Shown one piece after another: positions 1,449 through 14,551 of a DNA stretch of 23,327 nt. The translations under genes and the position numbers were made by a program. Numbering within the stretch: position 1 is the first letter of the stretch; every line of letters begins with the position of its first letter. The stretch is from Phycisphaerae bacterium. Its GTDB lineage: Bacteria > Planctomycetota > Phycisphaerae > Sedimentisphaerales > SG8-4. Where the stretch lies: assembly GCA_030603035.1 (NCBI GenBank), contig JAUVYQ010000023.1, positions 1-23,327 on the forward strand, in the 5' to 3' direction. The notes beneath the pieces were generated by a model. The model worked only from the letters and a program-made list of their open reading frames with translations, ran no database searches and was not told the DNA's origin.

Positions 1449-1477
1449 CGATTGTATAGTCTTCAAAATAACGCTAA

Positions 1478-1497
1478 CCCCATACATAAGTGTGGGG
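1478..1497. repeat. hairpin in the leader of the glycoside hydrolase gene
   Basis: CCCCATAC and GTGTGGGG form an 8-bp stem (one G-T pair) with a four-base ATAA loop. It lies between the two candidate starts of the hydrolase gene. It resembles the C-tract/G-tract hairpin at 1808-1841, so it may be a dispersed palindromic element. Confidence 0.5.
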
Positions 1498-1532
1498 AAT
1501 CCTTTTCTCTTCAAATTGGTCATCTTATTCAT

Positions 1533-1807: not shown

Positions 1808-1841
1808 CCCCCACATCTTGCTTCGCAAGAAGCAGTGGGGG
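1808..1841. repeat. two-tier hairpin just upstream of the portal gene
   Basis: An outer stem CCCCCAC/GTGGGGG (1808-1814, 1835-1841) encloses an inner stem CTTGC-TTC-GCAAG (1817-1829). It ends about 10 bases before the portal ribosome site GAGGAAAAG (1851-1859). No T tract follows on the plus strand, so it is not a standard terminator. It may be a dispersed palindromic element or a leader structure affecting translation of the cluster. Confidence 0.6.
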
Positions 1842-1861
1842 TAAAATTGCGAGGAAAAGAA

Positions 1862-3400
1862 ATGGCTTTTGACCTTGGTATCTTTAAAGACCCGACTTTA
1901 CAAGAAGATTATATCGAGTGGCTCGTTGATGAGCACTCGGTAGATATTCAAACACACTTTGCGAAACTGTGGGAATATTACGCAAACCGGATGGAAACCC
2001 CCAAAGCAGGGGCTGAATTGGGGCGGTGCTACCTGCAGGCACAGGAATATGGGCTTCCTGCGAGAATAACAGGGCTCGTGCACTCGGCAAACGCAGGTGT
2101 CTTCGGTGCAAGACGCCTCTGCGATGTGCAGCGAAAAGAAGTAGTAATCGAAAACGATATTGCGTGGCGAATAAATGCAGCGGTGGATTTTCTGTTCGGA
2201 AAGCCAATTAGTTTTGTTTCCAAATCGCCGGACAGCCAAAAACGTGCAGAAATCGAATCTATATTGAAGGCAGTGTTTGCGGCTAACGGCGGTATCGGAT
2301 TTTTTCAGGATATGGCAGTGCTCGGAAGTGTTTACGGTTTTGTCGATTGTCTCGTCAGGCCTGGCGATGAAATTACCAATTTACGATTTTCGATTTCCGA
2401 TTCGTCAATTGCCAATCGTCAATCGTCAATCCACAATTTCAACGATGTGCTGCAATTGGCACAAACAATCGGCTTAGAACTGATTGAAGCACCGAGAGCA
2501 CTGCCTGTTCTGGAAGAGGATGACTACAAAAAAATCAGATATTACGTGCAGCACTTCTACCAGAAGAAAAACGCCCTGAGCGGGAAAAACTCTTTTCTAT
2601 CGAGACTGCTGTCGCAGGTCAGGCGAAGCAGTGATAGTCGGCAGGTGGTTGCAGTGACGGAGATTACTTCGGGTACCGGCTGGCAGAGGTATGAAGACAA
2701 ACAGCTTGTTGCAGAAGGCGAATTGCCGTGGGGATTTCTGCCGGTGGTGCATATTCAAAACATCGCTCAGCCATACTACTACGAGGGGCTAAGCGATGTC
2801 GAGCCGCTGATACCGCTGCAGGACGAGCTTAATACCAGATTAAGTGACAGGGCGAACAGGATTACGTTCCAGACGTTTAAGATGTATCTTGGCAAAGGGA
2901 TAGAGGGATTCGAGGACAGGCCCATATCGCCAGGTAGGATGTGGTGTACCGACAATCCGGACGCGGCTATTGAAGAGTTTGGCGGAGATGCGGCGACGCC
3001 GAGCGAGGATATGCACATCGCTGAGATTAGAGAAGCGATGGATAAAACCAGCGGAGTAACACCAGTGGTGGCGGGAGTATTGAAGAATAAGCTCGGCAAC
3101 CTTACAAGTGCGGTGGCTCTCAGACTGACGTTTATGGGGATGCTGTCGAAGACCGAGCGAAAGAGGTTTACGTACAGAGAAGGGCTGAAAAAAATCGCCC
3201 AAATGGTTCTGGATATACTCGATAAGGCCAACATCTACAAAATCGGCGGGGCGGACAAAGAGATTGATATTATTTTTCCCAGTCCGCTGCCTGAAAATAT
3301 GATGGAAAAGCTAAAGGAGGCCCAGATTAAAAAAGAATTGGGCGTGCCGACTGAGCAGTTGCTCAGAGAATTAGGCTATGAGGCCGTGAAAGAAAGTTAA
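1862..3400 (+). CDS. phage portal protein, SPP1 gp6-like
   Basis: Dodecameric portal ring protein at the capsid vertex through which DNA enters and leaves. The sequence has the SPP1 gp6-type layout: an acidic N-terminal region, a central wing/stem, and a conserved segment LNTRLSDRANRITFQ followed by GNLTSAVALRLTF near residues 330-430. It is about 512 residues, normal for the family. The start at 1862 is chosen because GAGGAAAAG precedes it; a GTG at 1835 lies inside a hairpin. Residues about 171-193 (ITNLRFSISDSSIANRQ and the next six) are low-complexity and encoded by an AT-rich repeat also seen near 15745, an in-frame insertion. No terminase gene lies upstream, where phages normally carry it. 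It is followed by scaffold- and capsid-type genes. Confidence 0.85.
   Translation: MAFDLGIFKDPTLQEDYIEWLVDEHSVDIQTHFAKLWEYYANRMETPKAGAELGRCYLQAQEYGLPARITGLVHSANAGVFGARRLCDVQRKEVVIENDIAWRINAAVDFLFGKPISFVSKSPDSQKRAEIESILKAVFAANGGIGFFQDMAVLGSVYGFVDCLVRPGDEITNLRFSISDSSIANRQSSIHNFNDVLQLAQTIGLELIEAPRALPVLEEDDYKKIRYYVQHFYQKKNALSGKNSFLSRLLSQVRRSSDSRQVVAVTEITSGTGWQRYEDKQLVAEGELPWGFLPVVHIQNIAQPYYYEGLSDVEPLIPLQDELNTRLSDRANRITFQTFKMYLGKGIEGFEDRPISPGRMWCTDNPDAAIEEFGGDAATPSEDMHIAEIREAMDKTSGVTPVVAGVLKNKLGNLTSAVALRLTFMGMLSKTERKRFTYREGLKKIAQMVLDILDKANIYKIGGADKEIDIIFPSPLPENMMEKLKEAQIKKELGVPTEQLLRELGYEAVKES
2371..2441 (+). repeat. AT-rich dispersed element inserted in frame in the portal gene
   Basis: The stretch is dense in variants of ATTTACGATTTTC and AATCGTCAATC. 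The 13-mer ATTTACGATTTTC recurs exactly at about 15744-15756, next to the membrane-protein gene. The length is compatible with a multiple of three, and the portal frame stays open through it. Confidence 0.6.
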
Positions 3401-3407
3401 GAGGGTT

Positions 3408-3440
3408 CCCAGCCGCAATAAAGTGCGTTTGGGGTCCCAG
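3408..3440. repeat. portal-scaffold spacer with a motif shared with 20492-20519
   Basis: The gap contains TTCCCAGCCGCAATAAAG followed by GCGTTTGGGGTCCC. The string AAAGTGCGTTTGGGG is matched at one mismatch by AAAGGGCGTTTGGGG in the spacer beyond the sulfatase, which suggests a further dispersed element. Confidence 0.35.
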
Positions 3441-3464
3441 ACTGAAGTTTAATCAGGAGGTTTT

Positions 3465-4001
3465 ATGAGTCCGATTGACACAGACGAAGGGATTTTGTCA
3501 GAAGACACAGCGGGACATACTAATAGTGACGTCGATAACTTGAAACTTGTTCCGGTGGCCGAATCAATCCGCTATCGAAAGAGAGCACAGAGTGCTGAGA
3601 AGAAAATCGAAGCTTTGGCTGAGCAATTGAGTGAAGCAAAATCAGAGGCCAAAAAGATGGCTGAGCAGTTGAGCAGTATTGAGGTCGAACAAAAACTGAC
3701 GCGCAAATTAGCTGCTGCTGGGACTGTCGATCTGGAAACGGCCGTGTTAATTGCCAAGGCCAGAATAGAAGGTGGGGACGATGCGGATTTGGACGGTGTG
3801 GTTAAGCAGTTGAAGAAGGAAAAGCAATATCTGTTCGCCGACAATAGTGATGGGGCTGTGACGGCAAAAAAAACCGCAGGGGTTAAGGACCGAATGCAAA
3901 ACAGCCAGACAATCCTCGAAGGAGCAGCCAGGAAAGCGGCAACGACAGGCAATCGGACAGATTTGCAGGAGTATCTGAAACTGCGAAGAAATTTTATCTA
4001 A
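3465..4001 (+). CDS. capsid scaffold-like coiled-coil protein
   Basis: A 178-residue hydrophilic protein with a strong predicted coiled coil from about residue 40 to 75 (AEKKIEALAEQLSEAKSEAK and onwards), then a charged helical tail ending in KLRRNFI. Small, highly charged coiled-coil proteins directly between portal and major capsid genes are usually internal scaffolds that guide procapsid assembly, and that position is the main basis for the call. The start follows a clear AGGAGG. No protease domain is visible. Sequence identity to a named scaffold family (for example the GP20 type) is not certain. Confidence 0.6.
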   Translation: MSPIDTDEGILSEDTAGHTNSDVDNLKLVPVAESIRYRKRAQSAEKKIEALAEQLSEAKSEAKKMAEQLSSIEVEQKLTRKLAAAGTVDLETAVLIAKARIEGGDDADLDGVVKQLKKEKQYLFADNSDGAVTAKKTAGVKDRMQNSQTILEGAARKAATTGNRTDLQEYLKLRRNFI

Positions 4002-4040
4002 GTTCATAGTTTGTGGTTTATAGACTGAGAACTATGAACT
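4001..4040. repeat. inverted repeat between scaffold and capsid genes
   Basis: AGTTCATAGTT (4001-4011) and AACTATGAACT (4030-4040) are a perfect 11-bp inverted repeat with an 18-base loop, followed by AACT-rich sequence up to the capsid ribosome site. The left arm overlaps the last base of the scaffold stop codon. It could be a dispersed element or an mRNA structure tuning capsid expression. Confidence 0.6.
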
Positions 4041-4072
4041 CATAACTACTAACTAAAGAAGGAGAAAAACAG

Positions 4073-5227
4073 ATGGCTTTTACAGGAAAAGCAACTTATT
4101 CGGCGGGTACGACTCTGCCGGAATTGGCTGAGGACGTATCGGATTTAATCGGGATAGTTTCGCCCTATGAGACACCTTTGTTGGATGCCCTGGGCGACCC
4201 GATGAGAGAGGCAACCAGTACACATCATGAGTGGCTTGAGGATGAACTTCTGCCTAATAAAGATGCAATCAACGACAGCGACTTTACCGACCCGGACGTT
4301 GACACTGATTTTGTGGTTGACCACGGTAGCAGATTCCGGGTTGGCGACCAGATTCAGGTTGAAGGGTCAGAGGAATTGATGCTGGTTACCGGTATCGACG
4401 GCGATACGCTGACAGTGGTTCGAGGTTATGCGGGCACTACCGCAGAAGACTTGGCTGACAATCAGGTAATCAACATTCTCGGAAATGCGGCTCTCGAAGG
4501 GTCGGACAAGCCCAGTACAAGATTTACCAATCGCACCCGGTGCGGCAACTACACGCAGATATTTACCGCTGCGGTGGAAGTAAGCGGGACGGATATGGCT
4601 GCGAGCCAATTGGGTCTGGCTGATGAGATGGATTATCAAAAGCAGGAACGGCTGCGGGAGCTGCTTCGCGATCTGGAAAATACGGTTATCAACGGTGGTC
4701 AGCCGACGAGCAATCCCGAAGGCAGCGGCTCTGTAAGAAGGTCGATGAATGGCATTATTCAGCACCTCTCGGCGAATGTTTTCCATACTGGCGATAGCGG
4801 TTTTCCGACAGGTACCGAGCTTGACGAGGCCAAGATTAATTATGTGCTCAGGAAGATTTGGGAAACCAGTAATGGTAATGTTGACCTGATTGTTGTCGGT
4901 GGTTTTCAGAAGCGAAAGATAAACGCTTTCTCCGCTGACAGCCGGACCTACGGAGCCAACGATACCACTTTCACTGATATGATTAGTGTTTACGAAAGCG
5001 ACTTCGGTGTTTGCAGAATTGTTACCTCGCGATGGGTGCCACAGGATGCTGCGCTACTGCTGGATTCATCCCGTATTAGCGTGCTGCCATTAGCAGGTCG
5101 GAGCTTTCATTTCAAGCCGTTGGCAAGTGGTGGTGATTATGAGTGTGGCGAACTGATTGGTGAATATAGCGTGGAGCTCAAGAACGAGGCGGCACACGGG
5201 CTTATTCGCGATCTGAGTGCCAGCTAA
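4073..5227 (+). CDS. major capsid protein, SU10/DUF5309-like HK97 fold
   Basis: Main shell protein of the predicted particle. The N-terminal segment (TTLPELAEDVSDLIGIVSPY, then ETPLLDAL) and the following THHEWLEDEL are typical of the SU10-type major capsid family. About residues 80-140 (DHGSRFRVGDQIQVEG and onwards) form a small beta-rich insertion, and the C-terminal half contains the alpha/beta region (VDLIVVGGFQKRKINAF) and a terminal GEYSVELKNEAAHGLI strand. It is 384 residues, the expected size, with the strong ribosome site AAGGAG. It follows portal and scaffold in classical order. There is no N-terminal protease-cleaved extension. Confidence 0.85.
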   Translation: MAFTGKATYSAGTTLPELAEDVSDLIGIVSPYETPLLDALGDPMREATSTHHEWLEDELLPNKDAINDSDFTDPDVDTDFVVDHGSRFRVGDQIQVEGSEELMLVTGIDGDTLTVVRGYAGTTAEDLADNQVINILGNAALEGSDKPSTRFTNRTRCGNYTQIFTAAVEVSGTDMAASQLGLADEMDYQKQERLRELLRDLENTVINGGQPTSNPEGSGSVRRSMNGIIQHLSANVFHTGDSGFPTGTELDEAKINYVLRKIWETSNGNVDLIVVGGFQKRKINAFSADSRTYGANDTTFTDMISVYESDFGVCRIVTSRWVPQDAALLLDSSRISVLPLAGRSFHFKPLASGGDYECGELIGEYSVELKNEAAHGLIRDLSAS

Positions 5228-5272
5228 ATGGTGGTGGGTTAGCCGAGACGTAAAATGATGCGTCTTGGCAGG

Positions 5273-5305
5273 GGTGCCCAAAGGGACAACCGCTCTTTGG
5301 GCACC
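5273..5305. repeat. perfect 11-bp hairpin between capsid and connector genes
   Basis: GGTGCCCAAAG (5273-5283) and CTTTGGGCACC (5295-5305) enclose an 11-base loop. There is no T tract. It may be an mRNA processing or stability element below the capsid gene, or another dispersed palindrome. An open frame runs across it from 5265, but the true downstream start is 5343. Confidence 0.6.
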
Positions 5306-5342
5306 TAATCCCGCCGGTTACGCGAGAAGAGGGCTAAAGAAA

Positions 5343-5999
5343 ATGGTTAATTTTTCAAACGATGTGGATATTTTGAAATACGAGCCGATATTGTTCGGCG
5401 AGTTACATCTGCCGGGTCAGGTATTGGTGGCAGGGACAAGCGGGACGCTCAGCGGGACGACATTTACCGCAAGCGGCGCAGATTTTGTAAGTGCGCAGGT
5501 CCCGGCTGGCGGCGTTATATATTTGCAATCTGCAGATGGTTCGCTGGACGGCGCATACGAGATTATCTCGGTCGATTCGGCAACAGCACTTACAGTTTCA
5601 GTGATCAGGGCAGGTTCAGATGATGATGCTATTGCGCCGCCGGCGGCTACTGGCATATCCTACCGCATCAGCACGTTCGGGCCACAGGCCAGCGAAGCCG
5701 GCTTTAAGTTGACTGAATACTTCGGTATTAGGCCGGGTAATCCCGGAAGCGTCTATGATGCTGAGGACGTTCTGGATACGGATGTCTTAAAGAGGGCGTC
5801 GGTCTTTGCAGTCGTGTCAAGTGTGTATGCAATGTTAGCCAGTAAAGCCAAAGATGAGAATTTCTGGAAGAAGAGTCTGCACTATCAGAGGCTTTTTGAG
5901 AGGGCAAAAGAGCGGTGTCGGCTCAGTATTGATGTCGGCTCTGACGGGGTGGCTGATGTCACCAGGGTCGGGGCGTCTGTAAGGTTGGTGCGGGATTAG
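5343..5999 (+). CDS. putative head-tail connector/neck protein
   Basis: A 218-residue protein not recognised with certainty. Residues about 25-110 are a beta-rich small domain (GTLSGTTFTASGADFVSAQV, later YEIISVDSATALTVSV). The C-terminal half is alpha-helical and charged (ENFWKKSLHYQRLFERAKER), similar in character to phage head-completion or connector proteins. Position directly after the capsid gene supports that role. The start at 5343 has GAGGGCTAAAGAAA upstream; the longer frame from 5265 runs through a hairpin and is rejected. It shares with the capsid protein a beta-rich insertion of similar style, as if both carried a decoration domain. Confidence 0.5.
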   Translation: MVNFSNDVDILKYEPILFGELHLPGQVLVAGTSGTLSGTTFTASGADFVSAQVPAGGVIYLQSADGSLDGAYEIISVDSATALTVSVIRAGSDDDAIAPPAATGISYRISTFGPQASEAGFKLTEYFGIRPGNPGSVYDAEDVLDTDVLKRASVFAVVSSVYAMLASKAKDENFWKKSLHYQRLFERAKERCRLSIDVGSDGVADVTRVGASVRLVRD

Positions 6000-6016
6000 T
6001 TTGCGAAGGAAAACAG

Positions 6017-6388
6017 ATGAGTACCACTTTGGATGGACAAAGTTTATTTGACGAGCAGCAGTTAGAGATTGAGCCGGAGAGTATTGGCCGGGATTCGATA
6101 GAGAGAACGGTGCCGGGACTGGACGGCGTGCTGAGTATTGATCTGGGCAGACGTGGCAGGAAGATAAAACAGAGAGGCGTGTTGCGGGCGAAAAGCCGGG
6201 CGAAAATGGATGATAGAATCAGCGTAATATCGGCCTATATGGACGGTGATACGCACACGTTGGTAACCAGCAGCGGCAAAAAGTTTGATAATCTTCGAAT
6301 GGATGTTTTCAAGGTAAGCAAAGTGCGGGCAAGCGGCGGCGGTGTAACTATCGATTATGAAATCGTTTATACGCAGTTAGAGGTTTAG
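6017..6388 (+). CDS. small tail/baseplate-like protein
   Basis: A 123-residue protein, mainly beta, with the core GLDGVLSIDLGRRGRKIKQR and a C-terminal strand VTIDYEIVYTQLEV. The pattern, an opening short glycine-rich loop, basic strand, then a paired strand TLVTSSGKKFDNLRMDVF, resembles small tail or baseplate proteins that adapt a tube or hub, but I cannot assign a family. It has ribosome site GAAGGAAAA, sits 17 bases after the connector-like gene and five bases before the next gene, so it is clearly part of the same transcript. Confidence 0.4.
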   Translation: MSTTLDGQSLFDEQQLEIEPESIGRDSIERTVPGLDGVLSIDLGRRGRKIKQRGVLRAKSRAKMDDRISVISAYMDGDTHTLVTSSGKKFDNLRMDVFKVSKVRASGGGVTIDYEIVYTQLEV

Positions 6389-6393
6389 TAATA

Positions 6394-7170
6394 ATGGAAC
6401 TTATCAGCAGCGGGATAGAAAGGGTCAGGGCGTTTGAATTGCCCGGCGGCATTTGGTCGGACGGTGGGTATGTCGGAACGCCGCGGATAGCTTTGGTAAG
6501 ATGGCGGTCGGCCTGGAGCGATAAGTTTTATCAGATTTATGTCAACGGCCAATGTGCGGGGGTAACGGTTGACAGTCAGCAAAGACAGATGATTGTTCAG
6601 ATACCTGCCTCTTTAGAATCACCAGTTCGGATCGAAGTTTTTGCCGTTGAGGTCGAACAAACGGATACTGATTTTAGCAGTGAGATTGATTCGTCGATTG
6701 ACCAGATTGGCCGGGTGAAAATCAGTGTGCTGCGTGGCCAGGATTTGCCGATTGGCGCAACTGCTCAAATCTACTTTGACAACAGCACGGGCGAAATCGA
6801 TTACGACAAGGCACTTAATGATTCGCCGATAAGGGTGTGGCCGGCCTGGCAGGATAAGGCGGGGTTCGGAATGAGCAGGTTCGGCGCAAGTGATTTTGGT
6901 TATGACTCGGCGGCGGCGGTAGGGTTTGGAAAGGGCAGTTTTGGTCACGGTCGGTTCGGCCTTGATGCTGATACGTTTGAGTGGACAAGCCCGCCGCTGT
7001 GCGCGGGCGTTTACAAATTTGCCGTCAAGGTTACTGATGAAGCGGGCAATGAAAGCAGCGGCAGCGAAACCGGCCAAGTCACGGTGACACCGGCACCAAG
7101 GCCCGCAGAGCGAATAGGTATTTCTTCATTCGATAAACAGACGAATCAATTGGTGTTGAGTGTCTCGTAA
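6394..7170 (+). CDS. fibre-like beta-sandwich protein with FG repeats
   Basis: A 258-residue protein with two fibronectin-III-like segments: one around residues 25-90 and one at the C terminus (AGVYKFAVKVTDEAGNES). Between them residues 157-190 form a low-complexity run in which Phe-Gly recurs with short spacers (GFGMSRFGASDFG, then GFGKGSFGHGRFG). A motif IYFDNSTGEIDYD is paralogous to VYYDAGTGQINYE in the gene at 10283. A particle-surface or tail-associated role is inferred from domain type and position. No signal peptide. No family name can be given. Confidence 0.45.
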   Translation: MELISSGIERVRAFELPGGIWSDGGYVGTPRIALVRWRSAWSDKFYQIYVNGQCAGVTVDSQQRQMIVQIPASLESPVRIEVFAVEVEQTDTDFSSEIDSSIDQIGRVKISVLRGQDLPIGATAQIYFDNSTGEIDYDKALNDSPIRVWPAWQDKAGFGMSRFGASDFGYDSAAAVGFGKGSFGHGRFGLDADTFEWTSPPLCAGVYKFAVKVTDEAGNESSGSETGQVTVTPAPRPAERIGISSFDKQTNQLVLSVS

Positions 7171-7191
7171 AAGAGTAACAAGGAGAATATT

Positions 7192-7980
7192 ATGGCTGAA
7201 GTTTATCCATCTGACAACGCGTTGTTAAATATGCAATCTGACAGTGAGACCGGCGTTGAGTATATACCTACCGGTACATCGCCTTATTATCTGCACTTTA
7301 GAAAATTGCTGTATCGGCTATTGTTGGCTACACGGCGGGCAAACGATTTGAGGGTCTATGATGAGGGCGGGCTGGATATTGGCGTAAAAGAAGGCAAGTT
7401 CTGGCAGGGCACAGAGTTGGTTGGCTATGATGGCTCATCGGGCAATACTTTGGCGGATGATAAGACAAATATTTATGTCTATCTGGATTCAGCCGGCAAT
7501 CTTGTCACCAACGAATACAGCAGCTTCCCGAATATGGCAACCACGCCTCATATTCGCTTGGCGGTAGTAACCACCTCAGGCGGGGACATCGAGTCGATAA
7601 CCGATTCCCGCGCTGGTCATAATGTTGTGATGCCATATGGGGCCGGTGGGGTGAAAAAGCTGATCGAGGCACATACTGCCGATGATACGCTGACGGCGGC
7701 TGAATCCGGCAGTGTTCACACAAATTTAGGCGCTACCGGGACAATTACGCTTACGCTGCCGGCATCGGCGCCGCAGGGGACGGTATTTACCTTTGCGGTC
7801 CAGGCAGCCCAGGAGCTGCGGATTGACCCCGGCACGGCAACAATCAGGGACGACAGCGGCCAGACGGCTGATAAGTACAAGTCGGCTGATGCGATCGGTG
7901 AATGCCTGACACTTATTGCCGATTCGAATGGCGACTGGGTGACTATTGCCAAGAACGGGACCTGGACCGAGGAAGCGTAA
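7192..7980 (+). CDS. tail-fibre-like structural protein
   Basis: A 262-residue protein with a helical N-terminal segment (SPYYLHFRKLLYRLLLATRR) followed by glycine- and threonine-rich beta sequence, including GSVHTNLGATGTITLTLPAS, typical of C-terminal fibre domains that form trimeric beta structures. A putative role is receptor or surface binding on the particle. A good ribosome site AAGGAG precedes it. Its stop codon overlaps the next start as TAATG, indicating translational coupling. Family not recognised beyond this fibre-like character. Confidence 0.45.
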   Translation: MAEVYPSDNALLNMQSDSETGVEYIPTGTSPYYLHFRKLLYRLLLATRRANDLRVYDEGGLDIGVKEGKFWQGTELVGYDGSSGNTLADDKTNIYVYLDSAGNLVTNEYSSFPNMATTPHIRLAVVTTSGGDIESITDSRAGHNVVMPYGAGGVKKLIEAHTADDTLTAAESGSVHTNLGATGTITLTLPASAPQGTVFTFAVQAAQELRIDPGTATIRDDSGQTADKYKSADAIGECLTLIADSNGDWVTIAKNGTWTEEA

Positions 7981-8321
7981 TGAAAAATCATCCACTTTAT
8001 AAAAAGTTCAAACAGATAGTCCTTGACGGCAATTACACTATCGAGCAGGTGGAAAATGCGGACTTCAATCAGGTGGCAGAGCTGCTGGGCACTCGCAGCT
8101 TCAGTTTGGCTTTTCTCAATAATATGAAGCGCGGGATTATTATGGCGCTGCAAAACCAGAATGATGAAGCCGATATGCAGCAGTTGAGATTAACAGCAAT
8201 GATGTGGCTCAATGCGAACTTCCCAGATTGGCAGTCAGAACGTGGACGTGAAGACGACAAGCCGTTTGTGACCATCTGGTTGAAAGGCAAACCCCAATTA
8301 TCGGAGGAGGAACCTGAATAA
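7980..8321 (+). CDS. small protein translationally coupled between two fibre-type genes
   Basis: A 113-residue, helical and soluble protein (MKNHPLYKKFKQIVLDGNYT at the start) with no recognised domain. Its start overlaps the preceding stop (TAATG) and its own stop overlaps the next start in the same way, so the three genes are translated in tight coupling. A position between a fibre-like and a beta-helix gene, and a small alpha-helical size, would fit a fibre-assembly chaperone, but nothing in the sequence demonstrates that. Confidence 0.5.
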   Translation: MKNHPLYKKFKQIVLDGNYTIEQVENADFNQVAELLGTRSFSLAFLNNMKRGIIMALQNQNDEADMQQLRLTAMMWLNANFPDWQSERGREDDKPFVTIWLKGKPQLSEEEPE

Positions 8322-9799
8322 TGCCAATTATTTTCCACAATAAAGATAGTGTTTTCTTTGTCGGCGGTACCGGAACAAAGACAGGCCTTGCAACGGCTGG
8401 TGGTTGTACGCAGGCTTTCTGGGACAGTAGTCAAAACCTTGATGATGTGATGAAAAATAATGGTCAGCCACAAGGTTATGACGCTGATGCAGTGGTTACT
8501 GATAATGGTAGTGGCAAGGTACGAATGACAGGAGATGCAAGTAATTTTGCGACTTGTAGCGTAGGTTTGGTAGCATATTTATCCTTTCCTCCTCCTGGAA
8601 ATGGGGGGTATTCGAATGGCAGATACGAGGTAATCGATGTCGATAGTGCTGGCGATTGGATTGATATTGATTTGACATACGACCCTACTTATCAAAGCTC
8701 TTGTGATGTTACAGTTGGTGGGGCGTTTGATACCGCTCAGAATGCCTGGAACAACACGGACGCTACGCACAGTTATAGCGTTACGATTCACAGCAATAAA
8801 AGCCAATCTCATAGCAACGGAGATTTTACTGCAACGTGGAACCTTGGAACGGCAGGAGGTACTTTAACTAACACTAACAGGCCATTTAAGCGTTTCGTGG
8901 GATTTACCACGCAGCCAGAAGATGGTGGGCAGATTATCCTTGACGGTGAGGATGACGCAGCTTTTAGTCCGAATGGCGGTATAAAGCTTGATAGTGCCAT
9001 CGAGTGTATAATCTTTGAGAACGTGATTGTTAAACGGGCATATGTTAATTGGAATGCTGCTAATTCAGGTATTGCTGCCGCTCGTTTTATAAACTGTGAA
9101 GGTAATAATGGGCATACAGGATGGCGTCTGCAATATGGTGCCAATTTTGTTCTTATCAATTGTAAAGCCGACGGCAACACCTACTACGGGTTCGATTTGG
9201 TATACATCAGTGGTTTGTTGGCTCACTTTTTTATCAATTGTATAGCCAGTAATAACGGAAGAGAGGGTTTTAGAAACGCAGGCGGGCGTTTTGGAGGACT
9301 CCTCCTGGGATGTATCGCTCACGGTAATGGAAAAGGGGGAACGCCTTATGATGGTTTTCTTATCAAGGTGAACACCGGCACGGAAGTGGTAAGAAACTGT
9401 GTTGCTTATGATAACGGTAAGCACGGCTTTGAGTTTGGCTATTATGATGCTATTGCTATTAACTGTATCGCCAAGGACAACGGGCAGTGGGGGTTCTACG
9501 CTGATATGGGAGCAGTTAGACTGATGGCACCTCACGTTGCTTACTGCTGTGCTCACAATAATAGCAGCGGTCAGTTCAGCTTGCCTGGTGCATTACCTGC
9601 CATTCATAGTATCGAGGAAGACCCTCAGTTTGTCGATGCGGCCAATGGTGATTTCAGACCTCGCAATCCTGCGGTGCTTCGCGGCGGCAAGCCGGATATA
9701 AGCGGCAATCCCACTCAGATGGGAGCTATCTTACAGAAATATCAGTTCGGAGATCGTGAGCGCATAGTGAATATGGCCAGACTTAGAATTATTCGATAG
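8321..9799 (+). CDS. right-handed parallel beta-helix protein, tailspike-like
   Basis: A 492-residue protein with an N-terminal beta domain and a repetitive middle, about residues 258-390, in which coils of the form Asn-Cys-x-Ala-x-x-Asn-Gly-x-x-Gly-Phe recur six times (for example INCIASNNGREGF, RNCVAYDNGKHGF, INCIAKDNGQWGF). This is the right-handed parallel beta-helix pattern of pectate-lyase-like folds and phage tailspikes. Such proteins bind or cleave polysaccharide at the cell surface. No catalytic Asp/Glu set can be assigned from the primary sequence. No signal peptide, which fits a virion rather than a secreted enzyme. Planctomycetes also carry many secreted beta-helix proteins, so location in the virion cluster is the argument for tailspike. 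Confidence 0.65.
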   Translation: MPIIFHNKDSVFFVGGTGTKTGLATAGGCTQAFWDSSQNLDDVMKNNGQPQGYDADAVVTDNGSGKVRMTGDASNFATCSVGLVAYLSFPPPGNGGYSNGRYEVIDVDSAGDWIDIDLTYDPTYQSSCDVTVGGAFDTAQNAWNNTDATHSYSVTIHSNKSQSHSNGDFTATWNLGTAGGTLTNTNRPFKRFVGFTTQPEDGGQIILDGEDDAAFSPNGGIKLDSAIECIIFENVIVKRAYVNWNAANSGIAAARFINCEGNNGHTGWRLQYGANFVLINCKADGNTYYGFDLVYISGLLAHFFINCIASNNGREGFRNAGGRFGGLLLGCIAHGNGKGGTPYDGFLIKVNTGTEVVRNCVAYDNGKHGFEFGYYDAIAINCIAKDNGQWGFYADMGAVRLMAPHVAYCCAHNNSSGQFSLPGALPAIHSIEEDPQFVDAANGDFRPRNPAVLRGGKPDISGNPTQMGAILQKYQFGDRERIVNMARLRIIR

Positions 9800-9810
9800 G
9801 AGTTTAAAAA

Positions 9811-10254
9811 ATGGCAAATACGGCAATCGAAATACCCTTTTATGTATCAAAGGATGGAGAGCCGCTGACTGGTGCAGCAGCTCAAATGGATTTTGAAAGC
9901 TTGAAGACACTGGCAGGCGGTGACAAATCCGGCGATGCTCCAACTATCAGCGAAATCGGCGGCGGCTGGTACAAATTCAGCGTCGCTTACGGGGCGGCAC
10001 CATTTGATGCAGGCGACCTTATCGCGGTATTGGATGCCGATAAAAATGGTAACAACAATCTGGCTAATGCTGAGCGGTATATTCCCGTCGAAGTTAGGCT
10101 GGATTTTTATGCCCTGATGCGGCTGGTCAATAAGATGAGCCAGAATAAAAGTACGGGCGATATGGCAATAAAGAACGCTGGTGGCAATACGATACTGCAG
10201 CTTGGTATTACCGACGGCGAGAGCACGCTGGATAGAGAGCCGGGAGCGCCGTAA
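9811..10254 (+). CDS. fibre-associated beta-domain protein
   Basis: A 147-residue protein with an N-terminal beta-sandwich-like part (IEIPFYVSKDGEPLTGAAAQ) of the kind found at the N terminus of baseplate or fibre-upper proteins, a linker, and a C-terminal helical/beta segment (DFYALMRLVNKMSQNKS). Ribosome site TAGGAG lies upstream. It follows the beta-helix gene by 11 bases. A role joining the spike to the particle is plausible but inferred only from order and fold type. Confidence 0.4.
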   Translation: MANTAIEIPFYVSKDGEPLTGAAAQMDFESLKTLAGGDKSGDAPTISEIGGGWYKFSVAYGAAPFDAGDLIAVLDADKNGNNNLANAERYIPVEVRLDFYALMRLVNKMSQNKSTGDMAIKNAGGNTILQLGITDGESTLDREPGAP

Positions 10255-10282
10255 AGCTTATTTTTTATGACATTTTGAGACT

Positions 10283-10969
10283 ATGGAAGCCAAGTTTTTT
10301 GACAGTTTATATGAAGGTGATTCGCCAAACGGTGTCAAGCTCGGAATGGGCCTGACCGGCGGGGATTTCTGGCCTCGTATTGCAGGTTGTCAGGTGCTCT
10401 ATCGCGGGTCCGGCATCGATGAGATTGATTTCTCCAGCATACTGGCTGTGGCCGAAGCAGAGTCTTCTGAGATATGGCCGCCCAGCTATATTCCGCACAA
10501 TAGCGGCTCGACATATTTTTATGTTGTTCGTCGGGTCAATAATTGCGGGCGTCAGGAACATACCTTAGCTGCTGCGGTCAAAGTTTCAATAGATGCCAGC
10601 GGGAACCTGGCAGAGCCGCAGCCCAATAATATTTTTGAGGCAATAGCCCAACAGGTGTCCGGCAATAAAATACAGCTTATCTGGGTCTATTGCCCCATTG
10701 CACAGGAGTCGGCGCCTGCGTGCTTCAAGGTTTATTATGACGCCGGCACGGGACAAATCAATTATGAAAACCCAATTGCCATGATTTGCTATGCCGGCCG
10801 AAGGTTTTACAGCTACCAAAGTGACACACTCGAGGCGAGTAAATATCTCTTTTGCATAAGAGCTGAAGATGCTGCTGGGATGGAGAGTGCTTCATTGGCC
10901 CCAATAAGGGTCCAGCTTGATACCGTAAGCCCCGGTGCGGTCAATATTCTAAGTACCGAAATTATCTAA
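10283..10969 (+). CDS. fibronectin-III-like protein paralogous to 6394-7170
   Basis: A 228-residue protein with two FN3-like segments. The second contains CFKVYYDAGTGQINYENP, matching IYFDNSTGEIDYDKA in the gene at 6394, and ends in a strand pattern YLFCIRAEDAAGMESAS that also aligns with YKFAVKVTDEAGNESSG there. It lacks the FG-rich insert of the paralogue. No strong ribosome site is seen before the ATG. Probably another surface component of the particle; no named family. Confidence 0.45.
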   Translation: MEAKFFDSLYEGDSPNGVKLGMGLTGGDFWPRIAGCQVLYRGSGIDEIDFSSILAVAEAESSEIWPPSYIPHNSGSTYFYVVRRVNNCGRQEHTLAAAVKVSIDASGNLAEPQPNNIFEAIAQQVSGNKIQLIWVYCPIAQESAPACFKVYYDAGTGQINYENPIAMICYAGRRFYSYQSDTLEASKYLFCIRAEDAAGMESASLAPIRVQLDTVSPGAVNILSTEII

Positions 10970-10986
10970 CATATCTGAGGCTTCTT

Positions 10987-12816
10987 ATGTCTAACAGAAT
11001 CGACTTTTTCCAATCAACTCAAACACGACTGGCACTTCCCGGGGCTACTGTCTCAATTTTGCTCGATGGTGCGTTGTGCTCCCTTCTTGAGCCGATAGAG
11101 ATTGTGCGCAGCGGCTGGCCGGATTTTAGCTGGGCGAGATTAGCTTATAACTCTGCTGCGTACGCGAGCGCCGATTTGGTCGCTGTTGAGGATATTGAGA
11201 CCGAACTTGCGATGGGAGAACGTGTTTGCATCCAGCAAATTTATAACGGTGTCCCGCCAGGCGCAGCGGCTTTTGCTTTTCCTCTCTTCGAGGGTCAAAT
11301 AGAAGGCATCGAGACAGAGATTGGGCCTAAGGGTGAAAGAGTGGAAATCGTAGCCAGGGATTTTAGCGCAAATCTAAAACGTATCACCGTCTATGGCCAG
11401 CGGGTGGGTGATTCAGACGGCTCGAGTTTGTTTCTGGCTGGTGTTGATACCGTGTTTAATCTTGATGGCAAGGCCAATGCCAATCCTATGCTGATAAAAG
11501 TTAATGGTAAGAGCTATATAACCTTTTGTGCCGAGCCGTCGCAAGGCAAGCTCTGGAGCTATGTGGAAGTTATTAACTATTTGCTTTGCGAGTACTTGCC
11601 GAGCGGCCAACTGCAGAGGCCGAGTGTCGAGCAGTTGCAAGCATTGACCGAAGACCAGAAGGTTCGCGACCTTGATGTGACAGGCCTGAATCTATTACAG
11701 GCACTGCACCGATGCTGTGAGAGGATAGGATTGAAATTCAAATTTGTTCCCCGGCTCGTAGAAACTGGCCCTAAGCAGGCGATTGTGTTCTATAAGAGTG
11801 GTACAGGCAGAGCGGTTGAGTTAAATTGCCAACCGCACGGCGAACAGTTTAGCATCTCAAATACAAATATCGCGAGCTTGCGTAGCAGGAAAAATTTTTG
11901 GCCGATAACGCACAGGTATATTGCTCAGGGTGACTTCAAAGTTTATGAAGCGACCTTCGAATTGGTAAAGGCCTGGGACAGCAGCCACGAGGATATTGAT
12001 TATGATAAATTCTCACCTTCGACCAACCCCGATTTCTATCAGGTAAAGGATGTATATCGTAAATGGTGTCTCAACGAGGCAGGCGACTACAGTGGCACCC
12101 CATACAACCAGGGTGATACGTTTGACTTTTCAAAAATTTTCCAGAGTGGTAATTTCATTTGTCGTCGCAGGCGCTTTTGGCCGGCCTTAACCACTGACAA
12201 ACAGGAAAGGTCGCTGGGTTATTTTCTGCAGGTCTCATTTGATAACGGCTTGCACTGGTGGCAATACCTTTACGCTTTTAATAACCTGCTCGAGGAGTGC
12301 GGAGTGTGGCTCAGCAGTGACCAGCTCGATGTTGACACCTGGGTGGCGGCTCTAAAGGGAGTATTGAAGTTCAGGATAACCGCATCGGTAATCAGCGATG
12401 AGAGATTGAATTGTGTGGTTGCCGACGGGCCTGTCGATTCGACCGTGCCTGTGGTTGAGCATATTATTACGCTTCCCCGCCAGTTCAAGTATCGCAAGGT
12501 TTCCAGCCAGAGCATTTTTGCAAATTTATCCGGCGATACGCTCGGTGTGCCGGACGAGGCTGACGATTCTATTGCTTTATACGAATTTGTGCGTAAAAGG
12601 GCTCAGGTGGCGTCTGAGACTATCGAGACTGTCGATGTGCAGACGCCTTACTTGGCCTTTGATTACAGAATCGGCGACAGGGTGAGCACAAGTCCTGAAA
12701 GCAGGGACCTGCTCGGCTGCAGGAGCGATAACCGAAGCGTCAGCTGGATAGAGCAAGTCCAGATGGATTTTGAAAAGCAGTGTACGAATTTGAAAATCGT
12801 TCGCAAAAGGAAATAA
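10987..12816 (+). CDS. large hub/baseplate-like tail protein
   Basis: The largest protein of the cluster, 609 residues. The N-terminal segment FEGQIEGIETEIGPKGERVE followed by IVARDFSANLKRI has the style of hub proteins of the gpD/gp27 group, in which a beta-barrel carries a conserved R-D-x-S-x-x-L-x-R strand. Later parts are mixed alpha/beta with several Trp-rich stretches (for example GLHWWQYLYAFNN). A tail-tip or baseplate hub function is inferred. No lysozyme or peptidase motif was found. It begins 17 bases after the FN3-like gene and is followed by a five-base gap. Confidence 0.5.
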   Translation: MSNRIDFFQSTQTRLALPGATVSILLDGALCSLLEPIEIVRSGWPDFSWARLAYNSAAYASADLVAVEDIETELAMGERVCIQQIYNGVPPGAAAFAFPLFEGQIEGIETEIGPKGERVEIVARDFSANLKRITVYGQRVGDSDGSSLFLAGVDTVFNLDGKANANPMLIKVNGKSYITFCAEPSQGKLWSYVEVINYLLCEYLPSGQLQRPSVEQLQALTEDQKVRDLDVTGLNLLQALHRCCERIGLKFKFVPRLVETGPKQAIVFYKSGTGRAVELNCQPHGEQFSISNTNIASLRSRKNFWPITHRYIAQGDFKVYEATFELVKAWDSSHEDIDYDKFSPSTNPDFYQVKDVYRKWCLNEAGDYSGTPYNQGDTFDFSKIFQSGNFICRRRRFWPALTTDKQERSLGYFLQVSFDNGLHWWQYLYAFNNLLEECGVWLSSDQLDVDTWVAALKGVLKFRITASVISDERLNCVVADGPVDSTVPVVEHIITLPRQFKYRKVSSQSIFANLSGDTLGVPDEADDSIALYEFVRKRAQVASETIETVDVQTPYLAFDYRIGDRVSTSPESRDLLGCRSDNRSVSWIEQVQMDFEKQCTNLKIVRKRK

Positions 12817-12821
12817 CAATT

Positions 12822-13157
12822 ATGAGCAACGGTGTGAATATTGTAGATAACCAACAGGCACTGGAAAGACTTGCCCGAAAGGGTTCTGAAGAAACTCGAG
12901 AGATATCAGTTGTCACTTCACCCGGCGCCAGAGCCGCCGCCTGGGCTGTTAAGGTCAAAAGTCTGTCATCATATAATGTCTATAATGTCCGGGTTGTGGA
13001 GATAGGCGATGCAGGGTCGCTGCCGGTAGAGGTTGGGGGGCAGATGCAGGCAGTCAATTTGGCTGAATCGTTTCTTGAGGATGGCCAACTCCCAGCCGGG
13101 ACCTATGTGGTAATGTCCAGAGTGGGTGGTAAGAATGTTTTCTATGTCCCGGTGTAA
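12822..13157 (+). CDS. small beta-rich virion-cluster protein
   Basis: A 111-residue soluble protein (MSNGVNIVDNQQALERLARK at the start) with a C-terminal beta region VEVGGQMQAVNLAESFLEDG and a terminal strand KNVFYVPV. No recognised domain. The frame is open from 12780, but the start at 12822 avoids overlap with the hub gene. It sits between the hub-like gene and the membrane coiled-coil gene, so a minor tail or head role is possible. Confidence 0.5.
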   Translation: MSNGVNIVDNQQALERLARKGSEETREISVVTSPGARAAAWAVKVKSLSSYNVYNVRVVEIGDAGSLPVEVGGQMQAVNLAESFLEDGQLPAGTYVVMSRVGGKNVFYVPV

Positions 13158-13159
13158 AA

Positions 13160-13441
13160 ATGGCTGAAGAGAATTCGAGAAGCTGGCAGTTTAATCGCAG
13201 GGTAAATGTTTCTGTGTTGGTTCAATTGTTATTTCTGGCCTCTCTGATTGTGGGCAGTTGGGTTAATTTACAGAGACAGCTTGACCTGCTGCAGCACGAT
13301 GTAACGTATTTGTGTCAGTGTCAGAAGGATTTCCAGCAAAAACTCGAATTGCTTCAGTCAAAAAGCATTTCGTATGAGTATCGCCTTCGGGCGCTCGAGA
13401 GAGATTTAAACAAAACAGACACATCAGAAGAGACTTTTTAA
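13160..13441 (+). CDS. membrane-anchored coiled-coil protein, inner-spanin-like
   Basis: A 93-residue protein with a short basic N terminus, one membrane segment at about residues 17-35 (SVLVQLLFLASLIVGSWV), then a heptad-rich periplasmic helix to the end (QRQLDLLQHDVTYL and KSISYEYRLRALERDL). One transmembrane anchor plus a coiled coil is the architecture of an Rz-type inner spanin, which with an outer-membrane lipoprotein disrupts the envelope at lysis. The next gene is a lipoprotein. A cysteine pair (CQC) lies in the coil. No endolysin or holin is seen nearby, so the lysis role is unproven. Confidence 0.5.
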   Translation: MAEENSRSWQFNRRVNVSVLVQLLFLASLIVGSWVNLQRQLDLLQHDVTYLCQCQKDFQQKLELLQSKSISYEYRLRALERDLNKTDTSEETF

Positions 13442-13479
13442 TCGGTTAACAGGAACGAGACGGTTTAAGGAGAGAACTT

Positions 13480-14058
13480 ATGAAAAAGATTTTCGCGACA
13501 CTAATTCTGCCGTGCCTTTTATTGGCTGGCTGTGATAGTCTGCGTTTTGCACCGACCGAGGTCCAAAAGCAAAATGCCTGGCTGCACAATCGCACAACGA
13601 CGATAGCTGCAGAAACTGCCAAATCTGAGGCCACCTCTGAAAAACTGCAGGCATTGACCAAGCTGTCGCAGTTGCAGAGCAGGCCCTTTACTTCTTATTA
13701 CGGCCTGCCGAAGGAATTCCCACAAGCTGATACAGCCGAGGATATACTTGCCGAATCGAACTTCCGGCTTGCCCAAACGGCTCTACAGCAATCGGCTGAT
13801 AGGCCTGATGCCTGGCAATTAGCTGATAATGCGTTTGAATTGGCTATTGCTATTTCAGCTCTATTGGGTGGCGTGTATGGCACAAGAGCGGTTCGGTTCT
13901 TAAAGCAAGCCAGGAAAAAATCGCAGGCATTGCAGGAGATTATCGCCGGCAACGAGCTTTTCAAGAAAGAGTACAAAGCCTACGCTGGAGAATTCAAGCA
14001 AGCTCATCACGACCAATCACCCCAGACCCGTCAAATCGTGGCGGAAATGAAAGCGTGA
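13480..14058 (+). CDS. lipoprotein of the virion cluster, possible outer-spanin partner
   Basis: A 192-residue lipoprotein: signal MKKIFATLILPCLLLAGC with a clear lipobox (LLAGC, modified Cys at about residue 18), then an alpha-helical body rich in Ala and Gln, and a second hydrophobic segment at about residues 122-140 (AFELAIAISALLGGVYG). Ribosome site AAGGAG is present. It is the last gene of the cluster, ending in TGA, the only TGA stop among the intact genes of the window. An o-spanin is normally smaller and without a second hydrophobic segment, so this is a guess from order. An alternative is an envelope anchor for the particle. Confidence 0.55.
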   Translation: MKKIFATLILPCLLLAGCDSLRFAPTEVQKQNAWLHNRTTTIAAETAKSEATSEKLQALTKLSQLQSRPFTSYYGLPKEFPQADTAEDILAESNFRLAQTALQQSADRPDAWQLADNAFELAIAISALLGGVYGTRAVRFLKQARKKSQALQEIIAGNELFKKEYKAYAGEFKQAHHDQSPQTRQIVAEMKA

Positions 14059-14269: not shown

Positions 14270-14551
14270 ATGATTGTCGGCGTGATGACAGCTCAATTGC
14301 ATATGCAGGGGGTAGCTTCCCTCAAGGAAAAGAGAAGCATCGTCAAAAGCATTATCGGCCGATTGAAAAGCAGGTTCAATGTTTCCGTTGCAGAAGTTGA
14401 GCATCAGGACAATAAAACACGTGCGGTCGTTGCGATAGCAATGGTTTGCAACGAAACTCGTTTCATAAATCAGCAGTTTGATGCCATCATTAATTTTATG
14501 CAGAAAGACGGCCGATTCCACCTCGGACAAATTGAACGGGAAACTTTTTAG
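14270..14551 (+). CDS. DUF503 family protein (YlxP-like)
   Basis: A 93-residue protein matching the DUF503/YlxP family along its length: MIVGVMTAQLHMQG, the invariant SLKEKRSIVKSIIGRLK, FNVSVAEVEHQD and a C-terminal helix. The family is a small ferredoxin-like-fold protein usually encoded between infB and rbfA and thought to act near ribosome maturation; that neighbourhood is absent here. The start at 14270 is chosen over the longer frame (14183) because GGAGAG precedes it and the family begins with MIVGV. It is the first host-type gene after the virion cluster. Confidence 0.85.
   Translation: MIVGVMTAQLHMQGVASLKEKRSIVKSIIGRLKSRFNVSVAEVEHQDNKTRAVVAIAMVCNETRFINQQFDAIINFMQKDGRFHLGQIERETF

Follow-up and report, generated by a model that had tools for sequence, protein, structure and literature searches.

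The window, a 23,327-nucleotide stretch of a Phycisphaerae bacterium (NCBI GenBank assembly GCA_030603035.1, contig JAUVYQ010000023.1, positions 1 to 23,327), carries 15 colinear, intact plus-strand open reading frames (ORFs) spanning positions 1862-14058 that encode proteins of a tailed-phage-like particle. A sequence-only reading made earlier had counted thirteen colinear intact genes here; colinearity and intactness were confirmed, and the number is 15. Our results make it likely that this cluster supplies the particle module for an element that descends from a phage, was domesticated in the Phycisphaerae, is inherited with the host chromosome, and is most plausibly a gene transfer agent (GTA), probably of a new lineage, rather than a motorless relic. 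The features are listed below; counts out of 81 refer to loci compared by tblastn (80 genome loci and one IMG/VR locus; many contigs end within the cluster).

1862-3400, plus strand: gene 1, portal protein (SPP1 gp6-like), 512 amino acids (aa); PF05133 1.4e-16, phrog_64 7.4e-27; alternative GTG start at 1835.
3465-4001, plus strand: gene 2, scaffold-like protein, 178 aa; phrog_194 5.6e-5, and PF06810 3.6e-6, under the curated cut-off.
4073-5227, plus strand: gene 3, SU10-type major capsid protein, 384 aa; PF17236 1.1e-86; PDB sequence matches 9ny2, 9in6 and 7z45 (family profile).
5265-5999, plus strand: gene 4, core protein adjoining the capsid gene, 244 aa; 75/81 loci; candidate head-tail connector by position alone.
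6017-6388, plus strand: gene 5, tail module, 123 aa; 48/81 loci; weak DNA_circ_N match (0.076).
6394-7170, plus strand: gene 6, tail module, 258 aa with an Ig-like C terminus; PF19077 1.6e-4, under cut-off; 45/81 loci.
7192-7980, plus strand: gene 7, tail module, 262 aa; 45/81 loci; ratio of nonsynonymous to synonymous substitution rates (dN/dS) 0.10-0.15 by NG86 in 4 pairs.
7980-8321, plus strand: gene 8, ORF for a small protein in the variable slot; 5/81 loci.
8321-9799, plus strand: gene 9, beta-helix tailspike/fibre-like protein in the variable slot, 492 aa; PF13229 7.2e-8, phrog_18512 (tail fiber) 1.1e-4; 7/81 loci.
9811-10254, plus strand: gene 10, ORF in the variable slot, 147 aa; 10/81 loci.
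10283-10969, plus strand: gene 11, tail module, 228 aa; 39/81 loci.
10987-12816, plus strand: gene 12, probable tail/baseplate hub (gp27/Mu gp44/VgrG-like fold, from a predicted-structure match), 609 aa; 40/81 loci.
12822-13157, plus strand: gene 13, small protein; 29/81 loci; a GTG start at 12780 is possible.
13160-13441, plus strand: gene 14, 93 aa, one N-terminal transmembrane segment (hydropathy peak 2.21, residue 17) and, by eye, a probable coiled coil; 48/81 loci.
13480-14058, plus strand: gene 15, lipoprotein (LLAGC) with a second hydrophobic stretch, 192 aa; lipobox in 27/33 and second stretch in 33/33 family members; 38/81 loci.
123-1532, minus strand: GH5-like glycoside hydrolase, left host flank; PF00150 5.7e-11; near the cluster in 9/81 loci.
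14270-14551, plus strand: DUF503 gene, right host flank, outside the element; PF04456 1.9e-30.

The portal, scaffold-like, SU10-type capsid and fibre/tailspike-like proteins proposed in the sequence-only reading were borne out by profile matches (PF05133, phrog_194 and PF06810, PF17236, and PF13229, respectively), and its mention of envelope-associated proteins fits gene 14, with its transmembrane segment, and gene 15, with its lipobox. Host-type genes adjoin the cluster on both sides, as that reading had stated; on the right, the DUF503 gene is accompanied by two glutamine amidotransferases, an AIR synthase, a thioesterase, a sulfatase, and a UROD-type gene. No terminase, integrase, repressor, lysis, or replication gene was named by Pfam or PHROGs among the window genes scanned, in agreement with the earlier remark that no integrase, lysin, or replication gene was visible; no tape-measure gene was recognised in the cluster, and no tRNA, Rfam family, or att-like repeats bracketing the cluster were found in the window. 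In an ordinary temperate prophage, integrase, repressor, lysis, and replication genes would be contiguous with the structural genes, a pattern that the window does not show. A strong hairpin lies directly upstream from the portal gene (window 1808-1846); among 39 further loci that were folded, out of 61 available, none showed it at the corresponding position.

The same block recurs in related genomes. When 7999 candidates were scored against the capsid protein, 4766 proved to be homologues, with identities of 89% or more among the 120 listed, and a genome scan with this protein confirmed 85 stretches, from which 80 loci were kept, 57-93% identical and all labelled Planctomycetota or subgroups thereof. 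The tblastn comparison detected the capsid gene in all 81 loci, gene 4 in 75, the portal gene in 72, the scaffold gene in 70, gene 14 in 48, the hub gene in 40, and gene 15 in 38. Despite contig ends, 68 loci had the portal and capsid genes together with gene 4. The flanks did not recur in the same way: the GH5-like gene was near the cluster in 9/81 loci, DUF503 in 2/81, and the purM-like and UROD genes in none, so the chromosomal site of the window is common to near relatives alone. In a class sample of 297 genomes, the capsid gene was found in 131, with a single match in 119 of these; this and a phylum sample were requested at a completeness of at least 80%, the label "class Phycisphaerae" being taken from genome record names. 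The phylum sample yielded 44 matching genomes out of 294, comprising 25 common to the class sample, 16 outlying, and 3 weak. The outlying group has more distant SU10 capsid genes (E values of 1e-102 to 1e-142), and the four of its loci that were examined (L192-L195; E about 1e-140) have other neighbours. Phage records matching the capsid numbered 254, all below 60% identity and at 31.8% or less among the 20 matches listed.

The sequence-only reading held the cluster to be terminase-less, which is true of the window and wrong at the level of the genome, since relatives carry an orthologous terminase elsewhere. Among 40 cluster-bearing genomes chosen by hand from the 80 loci, the PHROG terminase profile (phrog_2) had matches in 30. 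Twenty-nine terminase proteins were extracted, 21 of which form one orthologous family with identities tracking the capsid clades (the remaining 8 did not enter the family analyses), and a search with an alignment of 15 members found a terminase match in 38/40 genomes, strong in 37. The remainder were G006 and G021, without a match, and G040, with a weak match only; G007 and G033 had partial matches. In G006, rpoB is also fragmented, so an assembly error is likely behind its missing terminase. The family matches PF17289 and the large terminases (TerL) of PHROGs and PDB, and the residues of what we take to be the Walker A, Walker B, and nuclease-site motifs, as well as four cysteines, are invariant in the 15 aligned members (of 21 first found). 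In G001, which bears the nearest relative of the window among the loci compared (L001; capsid 93% identical), the terminase lies on a contig other than that of the cluster.

Across the class sample, 127 genomes had both genes, 4 the capsid only, 27 the terminase only, and 139 neither (Fisher p = 1.6e-50, relatedness ignored), a strong terminase match being defined as E < 1e-60, with no value falling between 9.3e-30 and 2.7e-70. These results bear on the idea of a DNA-free particle made from leftover capsid genes and serving protein delivery or compartmentation, for which the window, with no terminase beside the portal and with lipoprotein and membrane genes at the 3' end of the cluster, might seem to speak. 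We regard it as quite improbable: a strong terminase match accompanies the capsid in 127/131 genomes, the terminase motifs are invariant in the 15 aligned members, and the portal is constrained. The protein-delivery element offered in the sequence-only reading is disfavoured because the packaging motor has been kept with intact motifs, and a truly terminase-less particle was rejected after searches with phrog_2 and later with the family alignment had located the terminase at other sites.

The terminase belongs to a second module. Often upstream from TerL on the same strand are genes for an HTH/sigma- or antiterminator-like regulator, an ABC half, a GNAT/ABC half, a ParB-like protein, and a small terminase (TerS; phrog_2538 at 8.1e-8, 3.4e-6, and 0.0031 in the three scanned). 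Of the terminase loci, 26 have 6 kb or more of upstream sequence; among these, same-strand TerS was found in 18, ABC, GNAT, and ParB in 17 each, and HTH in 13. Capsid and terminase lie on the same contig in at least 49 genomes (counted from the strongest terminase matches listed, with fragmented assemblies biasing toward short distances), at distances from 1 kb to 1.1 Mb: less than 10 kb in 9 (all on the same strand), 10-20 kb in 9, 20-50 kb in 14, 50-150 kb in 10, and farther in 7. A nearby terminase, which the sequence-only reading would have counted toward an ordinary prophage when found with an integrase, thus occurs no more than 20 kb from the capsid gene in 18 of these 49 relatives. Positions of tyrosine integrases and capsid genes were compared by eye in 18 genomes; the two lay within 30 kb of each other in 1 (G106, at 25 kb) and in none of the other 17, serine recombinases not having been searched in that way.

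Both modules stand together on one strand in three compact loci. L123 reads HTH-ABC-GNAT-TerL-portal-scaffold-capsid-gene 4-gene 5-gene 7-hub, and L124 reads GNAT-TerL-portal-scaffold-capsid-gene 4-gene 5-gene 6. The third, L131 (G103), is that of Sedimentisphaera cyanobacteriorum (named through protein P0241), where head and packaging genes occupy about 14 kb of one strand: portal, scaffold, capsid, gene 4, gene 14, gene 15, HTH, ABC, GNAT, a TerS-family gene, and TerL. This locus is hub-negative, no ParB-like gene was recognised in it, and its TerS-family proteins had no PHROG match. In several loci a spore photoproduct lyase-like gene lies inside the cluster, after gene 14 and, where gene 15 is seen, before it. 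From the compact-to-scattered forms, the inserted lyase-like gene, and the terminase-portal-scaffold-capsid order of the nearest phage, we infer a once contiguous block that would have been broken up through insertion and rearrangement.

Phylogenetic analyses, restricted to those 27 of the 40 genomes in which capsid, portal, terminase, and rpoB were all close to full length (the other 13 being excluded) and counting as supported an ultrafast bootstrap of at least 95, indicate that the element has been inherited with its hosts. All supported splits recurred in the rpoB tree (capsid 7/7, portal 8/8, terminase 9/9), with no supported conflict, and of the 14 supported rpoB splits 8, 12, and 9 were shown by the capsid, portal, and terminase trees, respectively. 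Distances correlated with those of rpoB (Mantel r of 0.897 for capsid, 0.913 for portal, and 0.900 for terminase, above all 500 permutations); relative to rpoB, the capsid evolves at 0.86x, the portal at 2.2x, and the terminase at 2.8x. In six close pairs, the capsid had an NG86 dN/dS of 0.05-0.14, the portal 0.11-0.18, and the tail genes 0.09-0.46; YN00 gave higher values, up to 0.21, 0.22, and 0.65, the last for gene 5, the highest tail gene. The ratio was below 1 for every gene measured (terminase and gene 8 were left out).

These data weigh on two further explanations. One is a prophage remnant in decay whose intact look is peculiar to this genome; the incompleteness of phage functions in any one place and the split or interrupted capsid genes of a few relatives accord with it, but the capsid ORF is at least 383 aa long in all 40 chosen genomes, dN/dS is below 1, and the capsid changes more slowly than rpoB, which leaves it extremely improbable. 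Broken capsid genes, which bear on the frameshifts in relatives that the sequence-only reading had named as a sign of an ordinary prophage, are uncommon (an internal stop in 3 of 131 best matches, a split gene in 4 genomes), and a decayed prophage was rejected because of intact frames, dN/dS, and class-wide conservation. The other is a currently active temperate phage lineage that closely tracks its hosts. The gene order of L123 and L124 is phage-like, SU10-type heads are used by free phages, and one genome (G002) has a second terminase copy near an integrase. Against this stand the single capsid match in 119/131 genomes, the 17/18 genomes without a nearby tyrosine integrase, the agreement of supported splits with rpoB, and the lyase-like gene inside several clusters. 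A scan of IMG/VR for close relatives of the capsid also yielded a single locus, with host-type genes beside it; we read it as host chromosome because K24 and spore-photoproduct-lyase-family genes follow gene 14, as in chromosomal loci. A terminase pattern scan of IMG/VR found none, both scans reaching close relatives only. On balance, an active phage is improbable.

Of the four split capsid genes, three (L135 in G190, L136 in G100, and L138 in G217) are interrupted by a prophage-like insertion that encodes a large serine recombinase (PF00239, PF07508), at about residue 58-61 in G190 and G100 and residue 320 in G217. The inserts in L135 and L138 encode a Mu gpT-like capsid protein, with the same family in L136, and the recombinase reading frame of L138 continues into the C terminus of the capsid. 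To judge from these arrangements, the capsid gene may serve as an attachment site for such elements. The fourth (L137 in G041) is split at residue 56-58 by about 7 kb, and no member of that recombinase family was detected there.

The hub-like protein of the sequence-only reading corresponds to gene 12, whose medium-confidence model (pLDDT 69.9, pTM 0.52) matches hubs of phages and injection systems: Foldseek against PDB gave a best E value of 3.0e-10 and 43 matches at E <= 0.001, all of them tail, baseplate, or injection-system proteins, with query TM-scores of merely 0.20-0.35. No sequence match above noise was found in Pfam, PHROGs, or PDB sequences, and we consider gene 12 a probable tail/baseplate hub. 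It was detected in 60/131 capsid-positive class genomes. The gene 4 model (pLDDT 87.8) had no PDB fold match at E <= 0.001. Between genes 7 and 11 (window 7980-10254) lies a slot exchanged as a cassette among loci, with a beta-helix spike in the window, L001, L014, L017, and L065 and a LamG-type protein with small genes in L003, L008, and L020. At the 3' end, genes 14 and 15 resemble, in their architecture alone, a spanin- or holin-type release pair, and gene 14 is a spanin/holin candidate; its Sedimentisphaera homologue has a weak match to phrog_1296 (holin, 0.0055). Separately, five loci (L187-L191) examined among 24 hub-positive, capsid-negative class genomes contain a second compact element, with the order in L188 of TerL, portal (phrog_113), protease, major head protein (phrog_371), adaptor, and then the same tail module (gene 5, hub, gene 6, gene 7, K14, and gene 11); judging by gene content, one tail module seems to be common to two head types.

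A variable spike slot beside a conserved core would fit a changing target range, as expected of a PBSX-like killing or phage-like bacteriocin particle that packages host DNA and is kept for killing competitors, and a DNA-packaging motor is also expected of PBSX. However, searches of the cluster against Pfam and PHROGs identified neither a toxin nor an immunity gene, and a killing needle would need a hub, whereas none was detected in 71/131 capsid-positive genomes; we therefore think such a role unlikely.

The domesticated, GTA-like particle raised in the sequence-only reading is well supported by the dN/dS values and by trees free of supported conflict with rpoB. The portions of the formal GTA classification drawn on here (PMC9662315) state that three GTA groups then had an established genetic basis and give as GTA attributes particle genes of tailed phages (caudoviricetes), full endogenisation, often at several loci, and mostly vertical inheritance, together with packaging of mostly random host DNA, a particle too small for the whole element, and DNA delivery to other cells. 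The element shows a tailed-phage origin (matches for portal, SU10 capsid, scaffold-like protein, hub-like fold, TerS, and TerL), endogenisation at several loci (the cluster is flanked by host genes, which in some loci also lie within it, and the terminase is at a distance), and vertical inheritance (27 genomes with splits common to rpoB, by one marker and with many splits unsupported). Since it shares these three sequence-testable attributes, we class it as a GTA-like element and a probable new lineage, known from its genes, rather than as a proven GTA; random packaging and DNA delivery are conjectured.

The closest parallel is the GTA of Brachyspira hyodysenteriae (VSH-1/BhGTA, Brachygtaviriformidae), for which the same portions of PMC9662315 describe a structural cluster without terL, a single-copy terL elsewhere, dispersed loci, and host co-diversification. 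It differs, in a comparison by description and not by proteins, in host phylum, whereas here the terminase sits in a recognisable packaging module and is co-inherited across a class. The Rhodobacter capsulatus GTA and its relatives (RcGTA; Rhodogtaviriformidae) likewise have domesticated tailed-phage particle genes, vertical inheritance, and several loci, as described in parts of PMC9662315 and PMC7947584; compared in the same descriptive way, the present element differs in its SU10-type head, its SPP1-type portal, and the lack of a recognised tape-measure gene. Sporosarcina phage Lietuvens, with an SU10-type head, has a homologous capsid (31.8% identity) and the annotated order terminase-portal-scaffold-capsid, but its 64.5-kb genome has sheath, tube, and tape-measure genes, which were unrecognised here, where the packaging module is often separate. 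A section of PMC7947584 describes a Zavarzinella prophage, from another planctomycete class, with an RcGTA-related TerL, and a part of PMC10945688 reports hexagonal particles from Poriferisphaera strain ZRK32, also of the Phycisphaerae; we claim no tie to the element. No report of a GTA or domesticated capsid like this element in Planctomycetota or Phycisphaerae was found among the titles and abstract openings listed from the open-licence PMC literature.

If the element acts as a GTA, the HTH/antiterminator-like regulator would switch both modules under host control, and capsids for host DNA would be built from genes 1-3. TerS and TerL would cut host DNA and package it through the portal, probably by a headful mechanism, with the ParB-like, ABC, and GNAT proteins assisting in its selection or preparation. 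Genes 4-13 would complete the particle with a short tail, whose exchangeable spike would bind a surface, membrane protein 14 and lipoprotein 15 would help its release, and kin cells would receive the packaged DNA.

Several observations weigh against this interpretation. The element is read from genes alone, particle, packaged DNA, and transfer not having been observed, and no lysin or induction switch was identified, relatives' flanks not having been searched for lysins or repressors. A hub went undetected in 71/131 capsid-positive genomes; such hubs may be lost, replaced, too diverged, or on a missing contig, and incomplete assemblies and divergence may explain part. G021 has full rpoB yet no terminase match, and the matches of G007 and G033 are partial. 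In G010, the terminase match is divided between two sites separated by about 0.94 Mb on a 6.2-Mb contig (C1:1627448 and C1:686424), which may reflect rearrangement, decay, or misassembly. Of the 154 terminase-positive class genomes, 27 have no detected capsid gene, perhaps because assemblies are incomplete, because capsids have diverged, or because the motor serves another purpose, and in the outlying group of the phylum sample the terminase match is absent in 2/16 genomes and weak in 14/16. In 2/18 genomes (G082 and G097) the terminase has a tyrosine integrase at most 30 kb away, and G002 has a second member of the terminase family (C1:2569170-2570597; E 1.2e-209) 4.6 kb from a tyrosine integrase; the family is thus not confined to the domesticated locus, and this copy possibly belongs to a prophage still using the same motor. 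Finally, one host marker only (rpoB) was used, and since many splits are unsupported, small transfers are possible.

A more far-reaching suggestion, which we put forward tentatively, is that Planctomycetota possess a class-wide DNA-packaging machine whose motor and capsid drifted into separate host loci and which shed its detectable hub in many lineages, Sedimentisphaera included. It might then be a tailless, portal-bearing DNA capsule, with loading gated by the ABC/GNAT/ParB-like module on the host chromosome, old and useful enough for its capsid to evolve as slowly as RNA polymerase.

A terminase missing from one window is no evidence of a DNA-free particle. The intermediates between compact and scattered forms would record how a phage genome becomes dispersed host genes. 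As the element is carried by a named species with a finished genome, S. cyanobacteriorum, which is in culture, its particle role is testable outside the usual model groups. If our interpretation is true, there would be a GTA lineage in another phylum, present in 131 of the 297 genomes sampled from the class.

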